Shown in pieces: positions 14,244-55,050 of a stretch of DNA of 64,000 nt (position 1 is the stretch's first letter; every line of letters starts with the position of its first letter). The stretch spans positions 62,001 through 126,000 of the forward strand of contig CAMVSQ010000001.1 of NCBI GenBank assembly GCA_947170225.1, read 5' to 3'. The position numbers were made by a program, and so were the translations under genes. A model generated the notes under the pieces. That model ran no database searches, was not told the origin of the DNA, and saw only the letters and a program-made list of their open reading frames with translations. Source of the DNA: an uncultured bacterium. Lineage in GTDB: Bacteria; Patescibacteriota; Gracilibacteria; Absconditabacterales; Absconditicoccaceae.

Positions 14244-14738
14244 TTATATCTTGCTAAATATAGATAATTTGGCAAGATCTCCAAATGTTATCAATCTATT
14301 TGCTATGTAAAGTGGGACTGCCATGATGATTTGCTGGAGCAATTTGGATACAATTAGCGAAAATCAGCATGTTTTAGTAAAAAAATATACCAATCATGTG
14401 GATAAAAGCAGTCATATCAAGGATATGATGATGTATATTGTAAATCTAATTTTGATAAAATCTTGTTTTTCAAAATTCTTTTTTGCATTTAAAGAAAATG
14501 AAGTGACGCTTCAAAATCCAAAACCTACTATATTTGATGTGACAATCCCAAATCCAATTTTTGACAAAATATAAAAAGCACTACACTCTGCAATACCTCC
14601 CAGAGACGACAGCAAAAGATACAAAAAAGCGTGTCTGGCTTCCTTTTTGACAAAAAATAAATTTGTGTCATCTATAAATTTTTTTGTGGTTTTACGATTC
14701 AAATTTTCCATTTCCAAATCTTCTTGAATTAAATCCAT
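14244..14738 (-). CDS. GtrA-like membrane protein (host-code copy)
   Basis: 164 residues. After a 30-residue charged N-terminus come four membrane segments: LYLLLSSLGGIAECSAFYIL, TSNIVGFGFGSVTSFSLN, the YIIISLIGLLLSTGLVYFF segment and a last one with MAVPLYIANRLITFGD. The SFSLNAKKNF and IANRLITF motifs match the GtrA-like family. Several glycines are TGA, unlike the TGA-free GtrA-like gene 800 bases away. It is divergent from the 3D-domain gene at 14835. Confidence 0.78.
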
Positions 14739-14834
14739 ATTTTTTTATATTGATTTGTGTTTAAATTTCAAAGTGAATTGCCATTTATTTTTTCAAAAAA
14801 AATTATGTTTGATTATCAAAGGAAATATGCAAAG

Positions 14835-16043
14835 ATGAAAAAGATTTTGGGTGTCTTTGTAATTGGATGTTTTTGGGTACAATTTGGATATTGCTTTGAT
14901 TTTCAGGCAAATTGTGAAGAAAGGACTTTTGTGGTGACTGCATACTACTCTCCAAAATCGGGACAAGCATTTTATTACAAAGATACATTTGAAGCTGAAA
15001 GGACTTTGAATTGAGAATGATATTTTTGAGCCAGTGGAAAAGAGGTTTTTAATGGGATGTTGGCAGCTCCTAGTTCATATGATTTTGGTGGATTGATTTA
15101 TTTTCCAAGTCTGGGATGAATATGAGAAATAGCGGACAGATGATGAGCAATAGTGGAAGCAGGACAGAGATGATACAGTTATGATCGCATAGATGTATGG
15201 ATGTGAACTGGCGAATTGGGACTTGTAAAAGCTTTGGTGTTTGGGAAACAAACTATCACATGATATTATTGTGATGCAAAAACTGTAAAGTCTAATAAAA
15301 TAAAAGAAAAAATTTGATTTAATTTGGATTCAATACCGATTTTGAAACATTTTTTTGATTCTACTTTGTTTATACAAGAGTTGAAATATGACAGGACTGA
15401 TGTTTGGGTCTATAAATTGCAGGAATATTTGATGAAATTTGGCTATATGAACAAAAAAACATGATATTTTGGTAGCGAAACCAAAAATGCCTTATGTAAA
15501 TATCAGGTAGCAAGAGGGCTTTCTACTTGGAGATATTGTGGTACTTTTGGAAGCAAAACAAGATATCATATGAAAAATGAGGCAACTGATAGGTGATTTT
15601 TGCCAGATTTTGGAGAAACAACCACTATTGATGATCTAATTTATTTTTCAAAAAATTACAAATTTAATCCCCATGTCATATTAAGCAATAGTGAGGCCAA
15701 TGAATCTGTAGCATTGGCACTAGTTCAAGATAGCAACATGACTAATAATAATACTATAAATACCTATTTCACCGAAGCATACAACAATTGAACAATTGAC
15801 GGAAAAATTTGAGATTTGCAAGATATGCTGAGATATTATTGATTTTATGAATGAGAAGTGACAAATACTTACGATAAAAAGACTTTGGATGCTGTCCATA
15901 ATTTTCAGGTAGCAGCTGGTATTTTGAAAGCAAGTGACACCACAAATCCTGCCAGATGATGGATGGGACCATCTACTAGAAATGCTTTGAATGAAAGACG
16001 GTATAAATTTCAAGAATCCAAAAACAAACTAGCAAACAGTTAG
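14835..16043 (+). CDS. secreted 3D-domain protein with peptidoglycan-binding repeats
   Basis: 402 residues. MKKILGVFVIGCFWVQFGYC looks like a signal peptide, which is why I prefer the ATG at 14835 over the in-frame ATG at 14805. Residues about 25-150 form a 3D domain (RlpA-like double-psi barrel): VTAYYSP, then YDRIDVWMG with the key aspartates. Two peptidoglycan-binding-1-like modules follow, near residues 185-240 (VWVYKLQEYLMKFGY) and 315-390 (IGDLQDMLRYYGFYEG, DAVHNFQVAAG). 3D domains occur in lytic transglycosylase-like wall enzymes, so wall remodelling outside the membrane is likely. guaD follows 25 bases later. Confidence 0.85.
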
Positions 16044-50237: not shown

Positions 50238-50909
50238 TTAAAGTTTAAATAGGTTGATTTGTGTATTTTTTTTGATGTAATTCAAAAGATGGATATCGTG
50301 AGTGAATAGCAATATAGTTTTTCACTCTTTGTTTAATCTCATTAGTACATCTGCTACTTTTTGTGTATTATCTCGGTCCAAATTTCATGTAGGCTCATCA
50401 GCGATAATGAGTTCTGGTTCATGGATTATAGCTCTAGCGATATTTACAAATTGTTTTTCTCATCCACTCAATTTTTTGATTGGTCTATCTTCAAATGGAA
50501 TTAAGTTTAACTCTTTTCTAATTCTATTGTATTTAGCTTCTATGGTAGCATCTCACATACCATAAATTTTTAGTGGATATATGATATTTTCTTTTACTGT
50601 CATGTAGTCTATCAATTTGTAATCTTGAAAAACTAGTCACAATTTCCTCCTATACATTTGGACTTCATCATCTGAATATTCTGAAATATCTGACATTTTA
50701 TAATGTATTACCCCTTTGGGTGCTTTTAGTTTGCGAGTTAGAAACTTGGAAAATACAGTTTTTCATGCTCACGATTTTCACATTAAGACTGAAAAATCTC
50801 ATTTGTATAGTGAAAAATTAAATTTATTGAAAAGTAATTCTGGAGTATCTCCAAATCCCCAAGTCAATTCATCTACATTTACAAGCAAATTGTGTTCTTT
50901 TTTTGCCAT
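50238..50909 (-). CDS. ftsE: FtsE-like ABC ATPase
   Basis: 223 residues, a lone ABC ATP-binding subunit. Walker A GKSGAGKTVFSKF, Q-loop LVFQDYKLID, signature KLSGGEKQFVNIARA, Walker B LIIADEPTGNLD and H-loop LLFTHD are all present. FtsE/LolD/MacB-type subunits share this pattern; size and the DEPTGNLD box favour FtsE, which with FtsX controls wall hydrolases at division. No FtsX or permease gene is adjacent, so the partner is unknown. Confidence 0.8.
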
Positions 50910-52166: not shown

Positions 52167-52436
52167 TTATAAATTTTTATAAATATCTCCTCTGGAATCT
52201 GCATCAAAAAAGTTGATTATCACTTTATCGTCTATAATTTCATAAAGAAACCTATATTTTCAGATTCTTAATCTATAACAATGTGGTAATCATACTATAA
52301 TTTTGATATCCAATGTGTTTTCGTATGGATCAAATGCTAATTCTCTCAAAACTCTTTCAAATTGGGAGATTATCGGTTGTCATTTTTGTTTTAACAAAAA
52401 TTTTTGGACCTTTTTTTCTAAAAATATCTGGTACAT
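52167..52436 (-). CDS. RelE/ParE-family toxin
   Basis: 89 residues: YQIFLEKKVQKFLLKQK, then LPHCYRLRIGKYRFLYEIIDDKVIINFFDADSRGDIY, the RelE/ParE-like beta core with the basic RLRIGKYR strand. Such toxins cleave mRNA on the ribosome or poison gyrase; which one is not decidable here. It follows the antitoxin by 3 bases, the usual order. Two TGA glycines indicate the module is adapted to code 25. Confidence 0.87.
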
Positions 52437-52439
52437 ATT

Positions 52440-52706
52440 TTATTTCAATGTATCTAAAAATGAAAATGCCTCTACTGCATCTTTGCCATGACTACTCTCT
52501 TTATACGATTTTATATCTTGTGAAGTCGTTTTTTCCGTTGGAAAACTTAATTTCAGTAATGAATTATATTCATCCACACTCATAAATACTCAAACTGGCT
52601 TATTTTGAGAAAGTATAATTTTTTTACCATAGGAAAGATTTTTTACTACAGTAGCTGTATTATCTCTCAAATCAGAGATAGATACAAAGTCAGTTGCTGT
52701 TATCAT
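52440..52706 (-). CDS. Phd/YefM-family antitoxin
   Basis: 88 residues. FVSISDLRDNTATVVKNLSYGKKIILSQNKPVGVFMSVDEYNSL is the Phd/YefM DNA-binding fold, and the C-terminal 35 residues are the flexible toxin-binding tail. Probably autoregulates its own promoter with the toxin. Confidence 0.87.
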
Positions 52707-52871
52707 TTTCTTTTTTTATATGTTAAAAAATATCAGTATATTTATACATATTTTTACCCAGATTTCAAGAAAAAAATTTTCAACTAAAATTTTTAGACTT
52801 TTTTGTCACAAAATAATTTTTCATTCGTATAATATAATAGATATATATTTATTTCAAAAATGTTTTAATTG

Positions 52872-52970
52872 ATGAATATAGTTCATTGCTATAGAATACA
52901 TGCATTCGTGATTCCATGCCAATTAACATGGGATGAGGTTTTCCATAGCAAAAATATTTTTGAAAGTTAA
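52872..52970 (+). CDS. candidate leader peptide of the ABC exporter operon
   Basis: 32 codons, ATG to TAA, starting MNIVHCYRIHAFVIPCQ; no TGA, no glycine. Its last third (GAG GTT TTC CAT AGC) overlaps segment 1 of the downstream attenuator, the arrangement expected if ribosome position on the leader decides folding. A TATAAT box lies about 35 bases upstream. It could instead be a small independent gene. Confidence 0.5.
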   Translation: MNIVHCYRIHAFVIPCQLTWDEVFHSKNIFES

Positions 52971-53042
52971 TACAGTAAAAAGTTAAGATAAAAAATAATA
53001 TTAAGCTATGGAAAACCAATCAGAACTTCCATAGCTTTTTAT
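52937..53042 (+). promoter_or_regulatory. transcription attenuator before the ABC exporter operon
   Basis: Three segments. 1: GGTTTTCCATAGC (52937-52949). 2: GCTATGGAAAACC (53005-53017), perfectly complementary to 1 over 13 bases. 3: TTCCATAGCTT (53027-53037), which pairs with AAGCTATGGAA (53003-53013) to form a terminator followed by T5. Pairs 1:2 and 2:3 exclude each other. Confidence 0.75.
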
Positions 53043-53064
53043 TTTTAATTCATTATCTATTTAA

Positions 53065-54003
53065 ATGTCTTTATCAGTAAAAAATATCAAAATGTTAGAG
53101 GTTAAAAATGTAAAAAAGGATTTCTCCAGGAGGATCAAAAGTGGGAAATGGATGAAAGACCTTTTTACTCCAAAGTATGAGAAATTTCATGCATTGAAGT
53201 GAATCTCATTTAAGATTGAACAATGAGAAAAAGTAGCATTTATCTGACCAAATGGAGCCGGAAAATCTACAACGATTAAAGCAATTTTGGGAATATTACA
53301 CTATGACGGTGGAACAATCAAAATTTTTGATAAAGACCCAATGTCAAATAGAGAAGAAATTGCAAAGCAAACAGCATCAGTCTTTGGTCAAAGGAGCCAA
53401 CTACTCTACCACCTACCTTTGATTGATAGCTTCAATTTTTTTAGGATCATGTATGATATTCCAAAAGACAAATTTGAAGAGAGATTGAATCATTTTTCAG
53501 AGAAATTTGGACTGAAAGAATTTTTAGATCAGCCCGTTAGGAAATTAAGTCTTGGACAAAGGATGAAATGAGAAATCGTAGCATCACTACTTCATGAGCC
53601 AAAAGCAATTTTTTTGGATGAGCCTACTGTATGATTGGATATTATCGCAAAAAAAGTCTTGTATGAAATATTGAATGACATAAACAAAAAAGAAAATGTG
53701 ACAATCTTTTTGACTTCACATGATTTGAATGATATCGAGAATCTCTGTGATAGAGCGATAATAATCAATAGATGAGAAATTTTGTACGACGGACAGCTTG
53801 ATGACTTGATGGCTACTCATGCGAATAAGAAATTTATAAGGTATAAGGCGAAAGACACTTTACAGTGGGAAGAAATAGTAATCGAAAACGATCCAAAAAT
53901 AGTGCAAAAGACATTGAAGTATCTGTTTGAAAACAAAGATGTAGAAGATGTCAAAGTAGAAAATGTACCATTGGAAGATGTAATAGAAGAGTTTTATAAG
54001 TAG
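53065..54003 (+). CDS. ABC-2 exporter ATP-binding protein
   Basis: 312 residues. Walker A IGPNGAGKSTTIKAI, a Q-loop FGQRSQLLYHLPL, signature KLSLGQRMKGE and Walker B AIFLDEPTVGLD are present, with a C-terminal extension of about 80 residues. The HALKGISFKIEQGEKVAF start and the LGQRMK variant of the signature are typical of ATPases paired with DUF990-type permeases, a group that includes drug and viologen exporters. Two such permeases follow. ATG 53065 is used; ATG 53092 is an alternative. Expression is probably set by the upstream attenuator. Confidence 0.87.
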
Positions 54004-54008
54004 CCATC

Positions 54009-54123
54009 GTCATTCTGAGCGAAGCGAAGAATCTAAAAAAAAATCCTCCCCCCGCTTTAGCGGGGACCTCCTTTAAAAAGGAGGACAAGATTCTTCACTA
54101 CACTACGTTTCGTTCAGAATGAC
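54009..54123. repeat. palindromic repeat, family A copy 3
   Basis: GTCATTCTGAGCGAAGCGAA ... CGTTCAGAATGAC, with two nested hairpins in the centre (CCCCGCTTTAGCGGGG and CCTCCTTTAAAAAGGAGG). Lies between the ATPase and the first permease. Confidence 0.85.
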
Positions 54124-54156
54124 ATATAAACAACATTTATCATAATAATATATAAA

Positions 54157-54942: not shown

Positions 54943-54950
54943 AAGGACCC

Positions 54951-55020
54951 GTCATTCTGAGGAGCATTGCAACGAAGAATCTAAAACATTAAATAGATTC
55001 TTCGCTTCGCTCAGAATGAC
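54951..55020. repeat. palindromic repeat, family A copy 4
   Basis: GTCATTCTGAGGAGC ... AGATTCTTCGCTTCGCTC-AGAATGAC, between the two permease genes. Confidence 0.88.
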
Positions 55021-55050
55021 AATATCCCATTTAAAAACTAACTTACTAAA

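Follow-up and report, generated by a model that had tools for sequence, protein, structure and literature searches.

What decides whether the ABC-2 exporter operon in this stretch of DNA is transcribed? The operon lies in a window (the whole 64,000-nucleotide stretch that was analysed) of a 0.95-Mb genome, G000, and an earlier sequence-only reading had placed a leader-peptide attenuator in front of it. Gracilibacteria-type bacteria are hard to culture, so to our knowledge almost nothing is known of their gene regulation. Based on the RNA segments, their covariation, a conserved leader ORF, a shared promoter and the content of the genes behind it (features in Table 1), we consider it likely that this region acts by ribosome-mediated transcription attenuation, as part of a resistance regulon.

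Table 1. Features of the leader and the exporter operon, by position in the window
Feature	Position	Strand	Remarks
ECF-sigma-type promoter, TGTCACA (-35), 15 nt, CGTA (-10)	52804-52829	+	Same motif and gap before the leaders of relatives
Leader ORF, 32 codons, MNIVHCYRIHAFVIPCQLTWDEVFHSKNIFES	52872-52970	+	Start 68 nt from the promoter motif
Segment 0, GCUAUAGAA	52888-52896	+	Partner of segment 1; on leader codons 6-9; from covariation and nascent folds
8-bp hairpin, ATTCCATG/CATGGGAT	52911-52934	+	Between segments 0 and 1; seen in folds
Segment 1, GGTTTTCCATAGC	52937-52949	+	Putative antiterminator strand within the leader ORF, codons 22-26
Segment 2, GCTATGGAAAACC	53005-53017	+	Partner of segment 1 (antiterminator) or of segment 3 (terminator)
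Segment 3 and U-run	53027-53046	+	3' arm of intrinsic terminator; segment 3 is 53027-53037
ABC-2 exporter ATPase, 312 aa, DrrA-like, ABC_tran	53065-54003	+	
ABC-2 permease, PF06182	54157-54942	+	Orthologues in relatives
ABC-2 permease, PF01061	55051-55836	+	

The sequence-only reading had claimed that segments 1 and 2 are complementary over 13 bases and that segments 2 and 3 form a T-run terminator. On checking, segments 1 and 2 match perfectly (13/13), and the terminator has an 11-bp stem, AAGCTATGGAA (53003-53013) with TTCCATAGCTT (53027-53037), followed by a U-run, with a local fold of -13.3 kcal/mol. All of its coordinates and pairings were correct; it overlooked two elements, segment 0 and the ECF-type promoter. 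The hairpin is absent from a simple-terminator scan because its loop of 13 nt exceeds the limit of 8. The architecture of this leader is far from chance: its 189 nt fold with z = -4.5 and none of 200 shuffles folds equally well, a perfect inverted repeat of at least 13 nt appears in 3 of 1000 dinucleotide shuffles, and the pairing of the segment 2 region with an upstream partner has p = 0.001. The 1:2 duplex beats shuffles at p <= 0.008 in all but one of the 16 leaders tested and at p = 0.024 in that one, values from related sequences for which a combined p is no independent evidence.

Seventeen further leaders share this architecture: G000 itself has one of them, and the remaining 16 are spread over 13 other genomes of its family. 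Including the window, the 18 leaders (14 genomes) precede ABC-2 operons (5), MsbA/BmrC-type exporters (9), ABC-F proteins (2) and GNAT acetyltransferases (2). By sequence they fall into class A (the window, L019, L020, L023 and L103), class B (L024, L081, L085, L086, L088 and L074, with L077 close to it), class C (L062 and L100) and class D (L021 and L022). Classes A and B have a GCTAYGG/CCRTAGC-like terminator stem and class C has AAGCTGCA/TGCAGCTT, class B has long 1:2 duplexes, and in relatives other hairpins occupy the place of the window's 8-bp hairpin. A protein search found orthologues of the PF06182 permease in G034, G038, G045 and G046 (47-64% identity). Leader matches were found by DNA search before two of these four orthologous operons; on reading, all four have a short ORF, a terminator and an ORF-internal strand that pairs with the terminator 5' arm, and they share TGTCACA, 15 nt, and CGTA or CGTT. 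DNA matches in G017, G029 and G046:C3 were rejected as chance on reading, as was a terminator in G031 that lies inside an integrase-like gene.

Covariation in relatives had been suggested as a check on the three segments, and their complementarity is kept there, with compensatory changes in the 0:1, 1:2 and 2:3 pairings. Within class A, columns 102/167/189 (segments 1, 2 and 3) shift jointly from A/U/A to G/C/G in L019 and L020, columns 99/170/186 go from U/A/U to C/G/C in L023 and L103, and the 0:1 columns 51/100 hold C-G, G-C and A-U among 5 sequences. In sets of 5 or 6 sequences per class, which share ancestry, the proportion of paired cells is 98.9% for 0:1 plus 2:3 and 89.8% for 1:2, versus 34-48% when the partners are slid; the segment 3 terminator pairing holds in 100% of cells across 5 leaders.

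The 32-codon ORF overlapping segment 1 was confirmed; as it contains no TGA, its translation is identical under tables 11 and 25. Across the leaders the ORFs have 17-49 codons, with segment 1 in the later part, and in class A-C relatives they start 62-71 nt from the promoter motif. All but one of 14 leaders in classes A-C (13) have an ATG 60-72 nt past the motif from which an ORF of 17 or more codons extends to segment 1, where shuffles give an expectation of 0.84. Synonymous divergence exceeds nonsynonymous divergence in frame in all nine pairs tested; the clearest coding signal is in L023/L103 (4/4/11 differences at codon positions 1/2/3) and the other pairs are weak. ORF conservation, the other check suggested, thus holds for position and in part for the peptide. 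Four class B leaders read through a TGA inside segment 1, so these ORFs are full-length only under code 25. The ABC-F leader L077 (G007:C7 129545-129700) has a promoter, 1:2 pairing and a terminator before the gene and no recognizable ORF, and we regard it as a degenerate or translation-independent version.

All 18 leaders sit behind an ECF-type promoter, mostly TGTCACA-N15-CGTW. This pattern has 143 matches in the 49 family genomes versus 13 for a reversed control pattern, both being totals added up from the per-genome table. A generic sigma-70 scan had picked out GTCACA with a 17-nt spacer to the first TATAAT; that reading was dropped because the conserved spacing is that of TGTCACA-N15-CGTW. 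The window's own genome has four sites with the motif and one ECF sigma gene (G000:C2, L170:2338-2901), encoding a protein of 187 aa with only sigma regions 2 and 4 (Sigma70_r2, r4). In G036, G018 and G037 the motif is found about 100-150 nt upstream of an ECF sigma gene on the same strand, which is the arrangement of self-regulated ECF genes, and we infer that the ECF sigma factor of G000 uses the motif in the window's genome. The consensus of ECF41 promoters is TGTCACA-n16-CGTC (PMC3426412), with an identical -35 heptamer and near-identical spacing (16 +/- 1), but the -10 element there is CGTC and here CGTA or CGTT (CGTA in the window), and the targets of the ECF41 regulon differ from those found here. 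Membership of the G000 sigma factor in ECF41 was rejected, given that it is too short and lacks the fused C-terminal domain of that group.

We read 66 promoter loci to survey the regulon. The attenuated set consists of the ABC-2 operons in the window, G034, G038, G045 and G046, MsbA/BmrC-type exporters (L062 in the window's own genome, L100, L024, L081, L085, L086 and L088), the ABC-F proteins of L074 and L077 and the GNAT acetyltransferases of L023 and L103. Both ABC-F proteins, at 404.5 and 403.3, score above 380, the cut-off that NCBIfam sets for ribosomal protection-like ABC-F. The window operon is predicted to encode an ABC-2 exporter, and a resistance role of the target genes is suggested by homology only. 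The unattenuated set includes a 440-500-aa protein that has no Pfam match and one hydrophobic stretch near the N-terminus; its gene starts about 60 nt past the motif in most genomes, leaving a short 5' UTR. Judging by its architecture, this protein may be the anti-sigma factor of the regulon. Its gene is the most frequent one behind the motif (L061, own genome C10 ~14500-15840; L063, L073, L076 and L105). Also unattenuated is an S-layer-homology (SLH) protein gene with a long, different leader. At these loci (L060, own genome C5 ~50300-50860; L069, L091 and related) the 5' leader, 240-560 nt long, differs from the resistance leaders and contains a small hairpin that is conserved, (T/C)GTGTGGAGACAC(A/G). 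At L071 (G005:C30 57478) and L101 (G038:C7) the ECF-type promoter precedes transcripts that contain hairpins and lack an obvious leader ORF, possibly small RNAs or other leaders.

To see how translation affects the fold, we placed a block the size of a ribosome on each codon in turn and folded the leader as far as the end of segment 2. All 15 ORF-bearing leaders gave one pattern: 1:2 could still form when an early codon was blocked (ON) and was abolished when the block lay on segment 1 (OFF). The change is predicted at about codon 8-20 for class A, codon 12-18 for class B, codon 10-11 for class C and codon 30 for class D. The folding model supports the earlier proposal, in which an early stall would let segments 1 and 2 pair and transcription read through, and a ribosome on segment 1 would permit termination. 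The sequence-only reading had a ribosome finishing the ORF cover segment 1; at the window's stop codon masking would be incomplete, because segment 1 ends 18 nt upstream and a ribosome resting there would leave it partly exposed. Without a ribosome, the four class A relatives are fully or almost fully OFF via 0:1, and in the model segment 0 sequesters segment 1 in these relatives. A point against the proposal is that ribosome-free equilibrium folding favours the antiterminator for the window and classes B, C and D, so OFF would need tight transcription-translation coupling or kinetic trapping.

The mechanism we propose presumes ECF control, translation of the ORF, stalling by a drug and a particular direction of control. 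RNA polymerase, probably with the ECF sigma factor, would start just downstream of TGTCACA-N15-CGTA and transcribe the leader with its 32-codon ORF. Under normal translation, ribosomes would sweep over segment 1, or segment 0 would hold it; segment 2 would then pair with segment 3, and transcription would stop about 20 nt before the ATPase start codon. A ribosome held early in the ORF, for example by an exit-tunnel antibiotic, would mask segment 0 and leave segment 1 free to capture segment 2, no terminator would form and the ABC-2 exporter would be made. Since the same device appears to control MsbA/BmrC-type exporters, ABC-F ribosomal-protection-like proteins and GNAT acetyltransferases, the operon would be one output arm of a regulon directed against translation-inhibiting compounds. 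The sharing of one leader type by these genes also favours a drug as the signal, and from the gene content our best guess for the inducer is antibiotics that stall early elongation.

A leader of this kind could instead sense a general slowdown of translation or the supply of amino acids, for example through Cys and Tyr codons near positions 6-7 in class A. C6 and Y7/C7 do recur in class A leaders (codons 6-9 in the window are C6-Y7-R8-I9), and the folding model would answer to any early stall. The E. coli trp attenuator likewise has four segments with alternating pairings, comparable to 0:1, 1:2 and 2:3 here, but it has a tandem codon for the limiting amino acid, and our leaders show no repeat of a single codon like those of the trp and his leaders; attenuation of the tandem-codon type was rejected on this ground. 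The peptides vary between classes while the gene content stays resistance-like, and none of the leaders found precedes a biosynthesis gene. We consider sensing of amino acids or of translation rate unlikely. That a ligand-binding riboswitch or a protein-bound attenuator operates here, with the ORF incidental, seems very improbable. A four-segment RNA with mutually exclusive pairings could be switched by any binder, but Rfam covariance models gave no family on the leader even at E <= 1 apart from chance microRNA matches (the whole window gave only tRNAs besides these), a conserved aptamer core is not apparent between classes, and the placement of the ORF is far above chance.

The remaining alternatives give the RNA a lesser part. 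Expression might be set at the promoter alone by an envelope-stress ECF sigma factor, with the hairpins acting as fixed, partly leaky terminators, and the presence of S-layer and putative anti-sigma genes in the ECF-type regulon fits this. However, the antiterminator pairing covaries, and the anti-sigma-like gene has its short 5' UTR without an attenuator; because such regulon genes go without it, the attenuator looks like a specific addition, and we find promoter-only control quite improbable. It is hardly credible that the hairpin merely insulates the operon from upstream transcription and that the rest is chance. AT-rich hairpins with U-runs are common, and 119 stretches in public genomes carry the terminator hairpin, but here it is placed between promoter and gene, segment 1 pairing, ORF and promoter spacing recur in relatives, and the 1:2 covariation already contradicts mere insulation.

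The preferred reading, ribosome-mediated attenuation, has proven counterparts. Attenuation at bmrB-bmrCD of Bacillus subtilis was established experimentally (PMC4191407), and it shares with our leaders a leader ORF, three alternative stem-loops, an intrinsic terminator and a multidrug ABC transporter downstream. That system has a 53-aa leader and AbrB control; ours, known from sequence alone, have 17-49 codons, an ECF-type promoter, segment 0 and several target types in one regulon. Transcription attenuation of ABC-F genes in response to antibiotics is described for msrDL-msrD (PMC10314930) and vmlR (PMC9226507), and ABC-F genes are among the targets here too. MsrDL is a very short peptide and the stalled ribosome directly blocks the terminator, whereas our leaders have a separate antiterminator strand inside the ORF. 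The features that characterize bmrCD-, vmlR- and msrD-type leaders are present, namely a leader ORF between promoter and terminator, an intrinsic terminator before the gene and a conserved antiterminator overlapping the ORF, and by these features the leaders would work in the manner of bmrCD.

Four class B leaders (G005, G008, G011 and G012) have L6-F/Y7-V8-M/V9, reading LFVV, LYVM, LYVM and LFVM at codons 6-9. ErmCL, MGIFSIFVI, arrests with macrolides when Ile9 is in the P site (PMC5915450, PMC9178857, PMC13148051) and has IFVI at the same codons, although ermC is controlled at translation, unlike the transcription attenuation proposed here. Codon 9 of the class B leaders falls within the predicted ON range. 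We take this likeness as a lead to candidate arrest peptides, for which a standard cell-free system could serve as an assay; the lead does not extend to the window leader, in which I-F-V-I or a close match at codons 6-9 is absent, as it is in the other class A leaders and in classes C and D. No known arrest motif was recognized in the class A peptide, and this counts against the preferred reading.

In the open-licence literature we found no paper joining Gracilibacteria with attenuation and leader peptides, and none joining an ECF sigma factor with a leader peptide, attenuation, a regulon and antibiotic resistance. The novelty lies in the lineage, in the coupling to an ECF-type promoter and in a single design that serves several resistance mechanisms. 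With somewhat less than even confidence, we suggest that this is a two-layer circuit of code-25 Gracilibacteria not described elsewhere, in which an ECF sigma factor sets the output of a group of unlinked genes, each resistance gene has its own attenuator that passes transcription only on early stalls, and some leaders have independently acquired an ErmCL-like arrest sequence. If the attenuation reading is right, these bacteria with tiny genomes detect translation inhibitors through their own ribosomes and respond by export, ribosome protection and acetylation. Ribosome-mediated attenuation would then reach into a code-25 lineage of Patescibacteria, where it is coupled with an ECF-type regulon.

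The combination of ECF-type motif, about 68 nt, ORF and hairpin could serve as a sequence tag for finding resistance genes in these genomes. In a prospective test, a covariance model (R2) trained on class B (six leaders) picked up two that had not been seen before, G045:C2 (E = 5e-5) and G048:C70 (E = 4e-4), and also matched the class A leader in G034 (E = 0.0014) and the window (0.048). Both new leaders have a promoter upstream (TGTCACA-N15-CGTA and TGTCACG-N15-CGTC), a leader ORF and an ABC exporter downstream. In a model search across 353 genomes of the class, no member outside the family passed. The same terminator hairpin occurs at 124 loci in public genomes and viral contigs, and only 6 have the promoter upstream; these 6 carry promoter sequences of known family members. 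The hairpin alone was rejected as a marker, being unspecific and spread over Bacillota and Bacteroidota, there without the ECF-type promoter.

Two further observations concern the neighbourhood of the window leader. Genes for a Phd/YefM antitoxin and a ParE toxin, divergent from the leader, occupy 52167-52706 on the minus strand. Long imperfect inverted repeats of the cgtcattctgagcgaagcgaagaatct type are present in each of the two intergenic gaps of the ABC operon (54007-54125 and 54950-55021); similar repeats are found in L060 and near the G048 leader, and they resemble a REP or MITE family.
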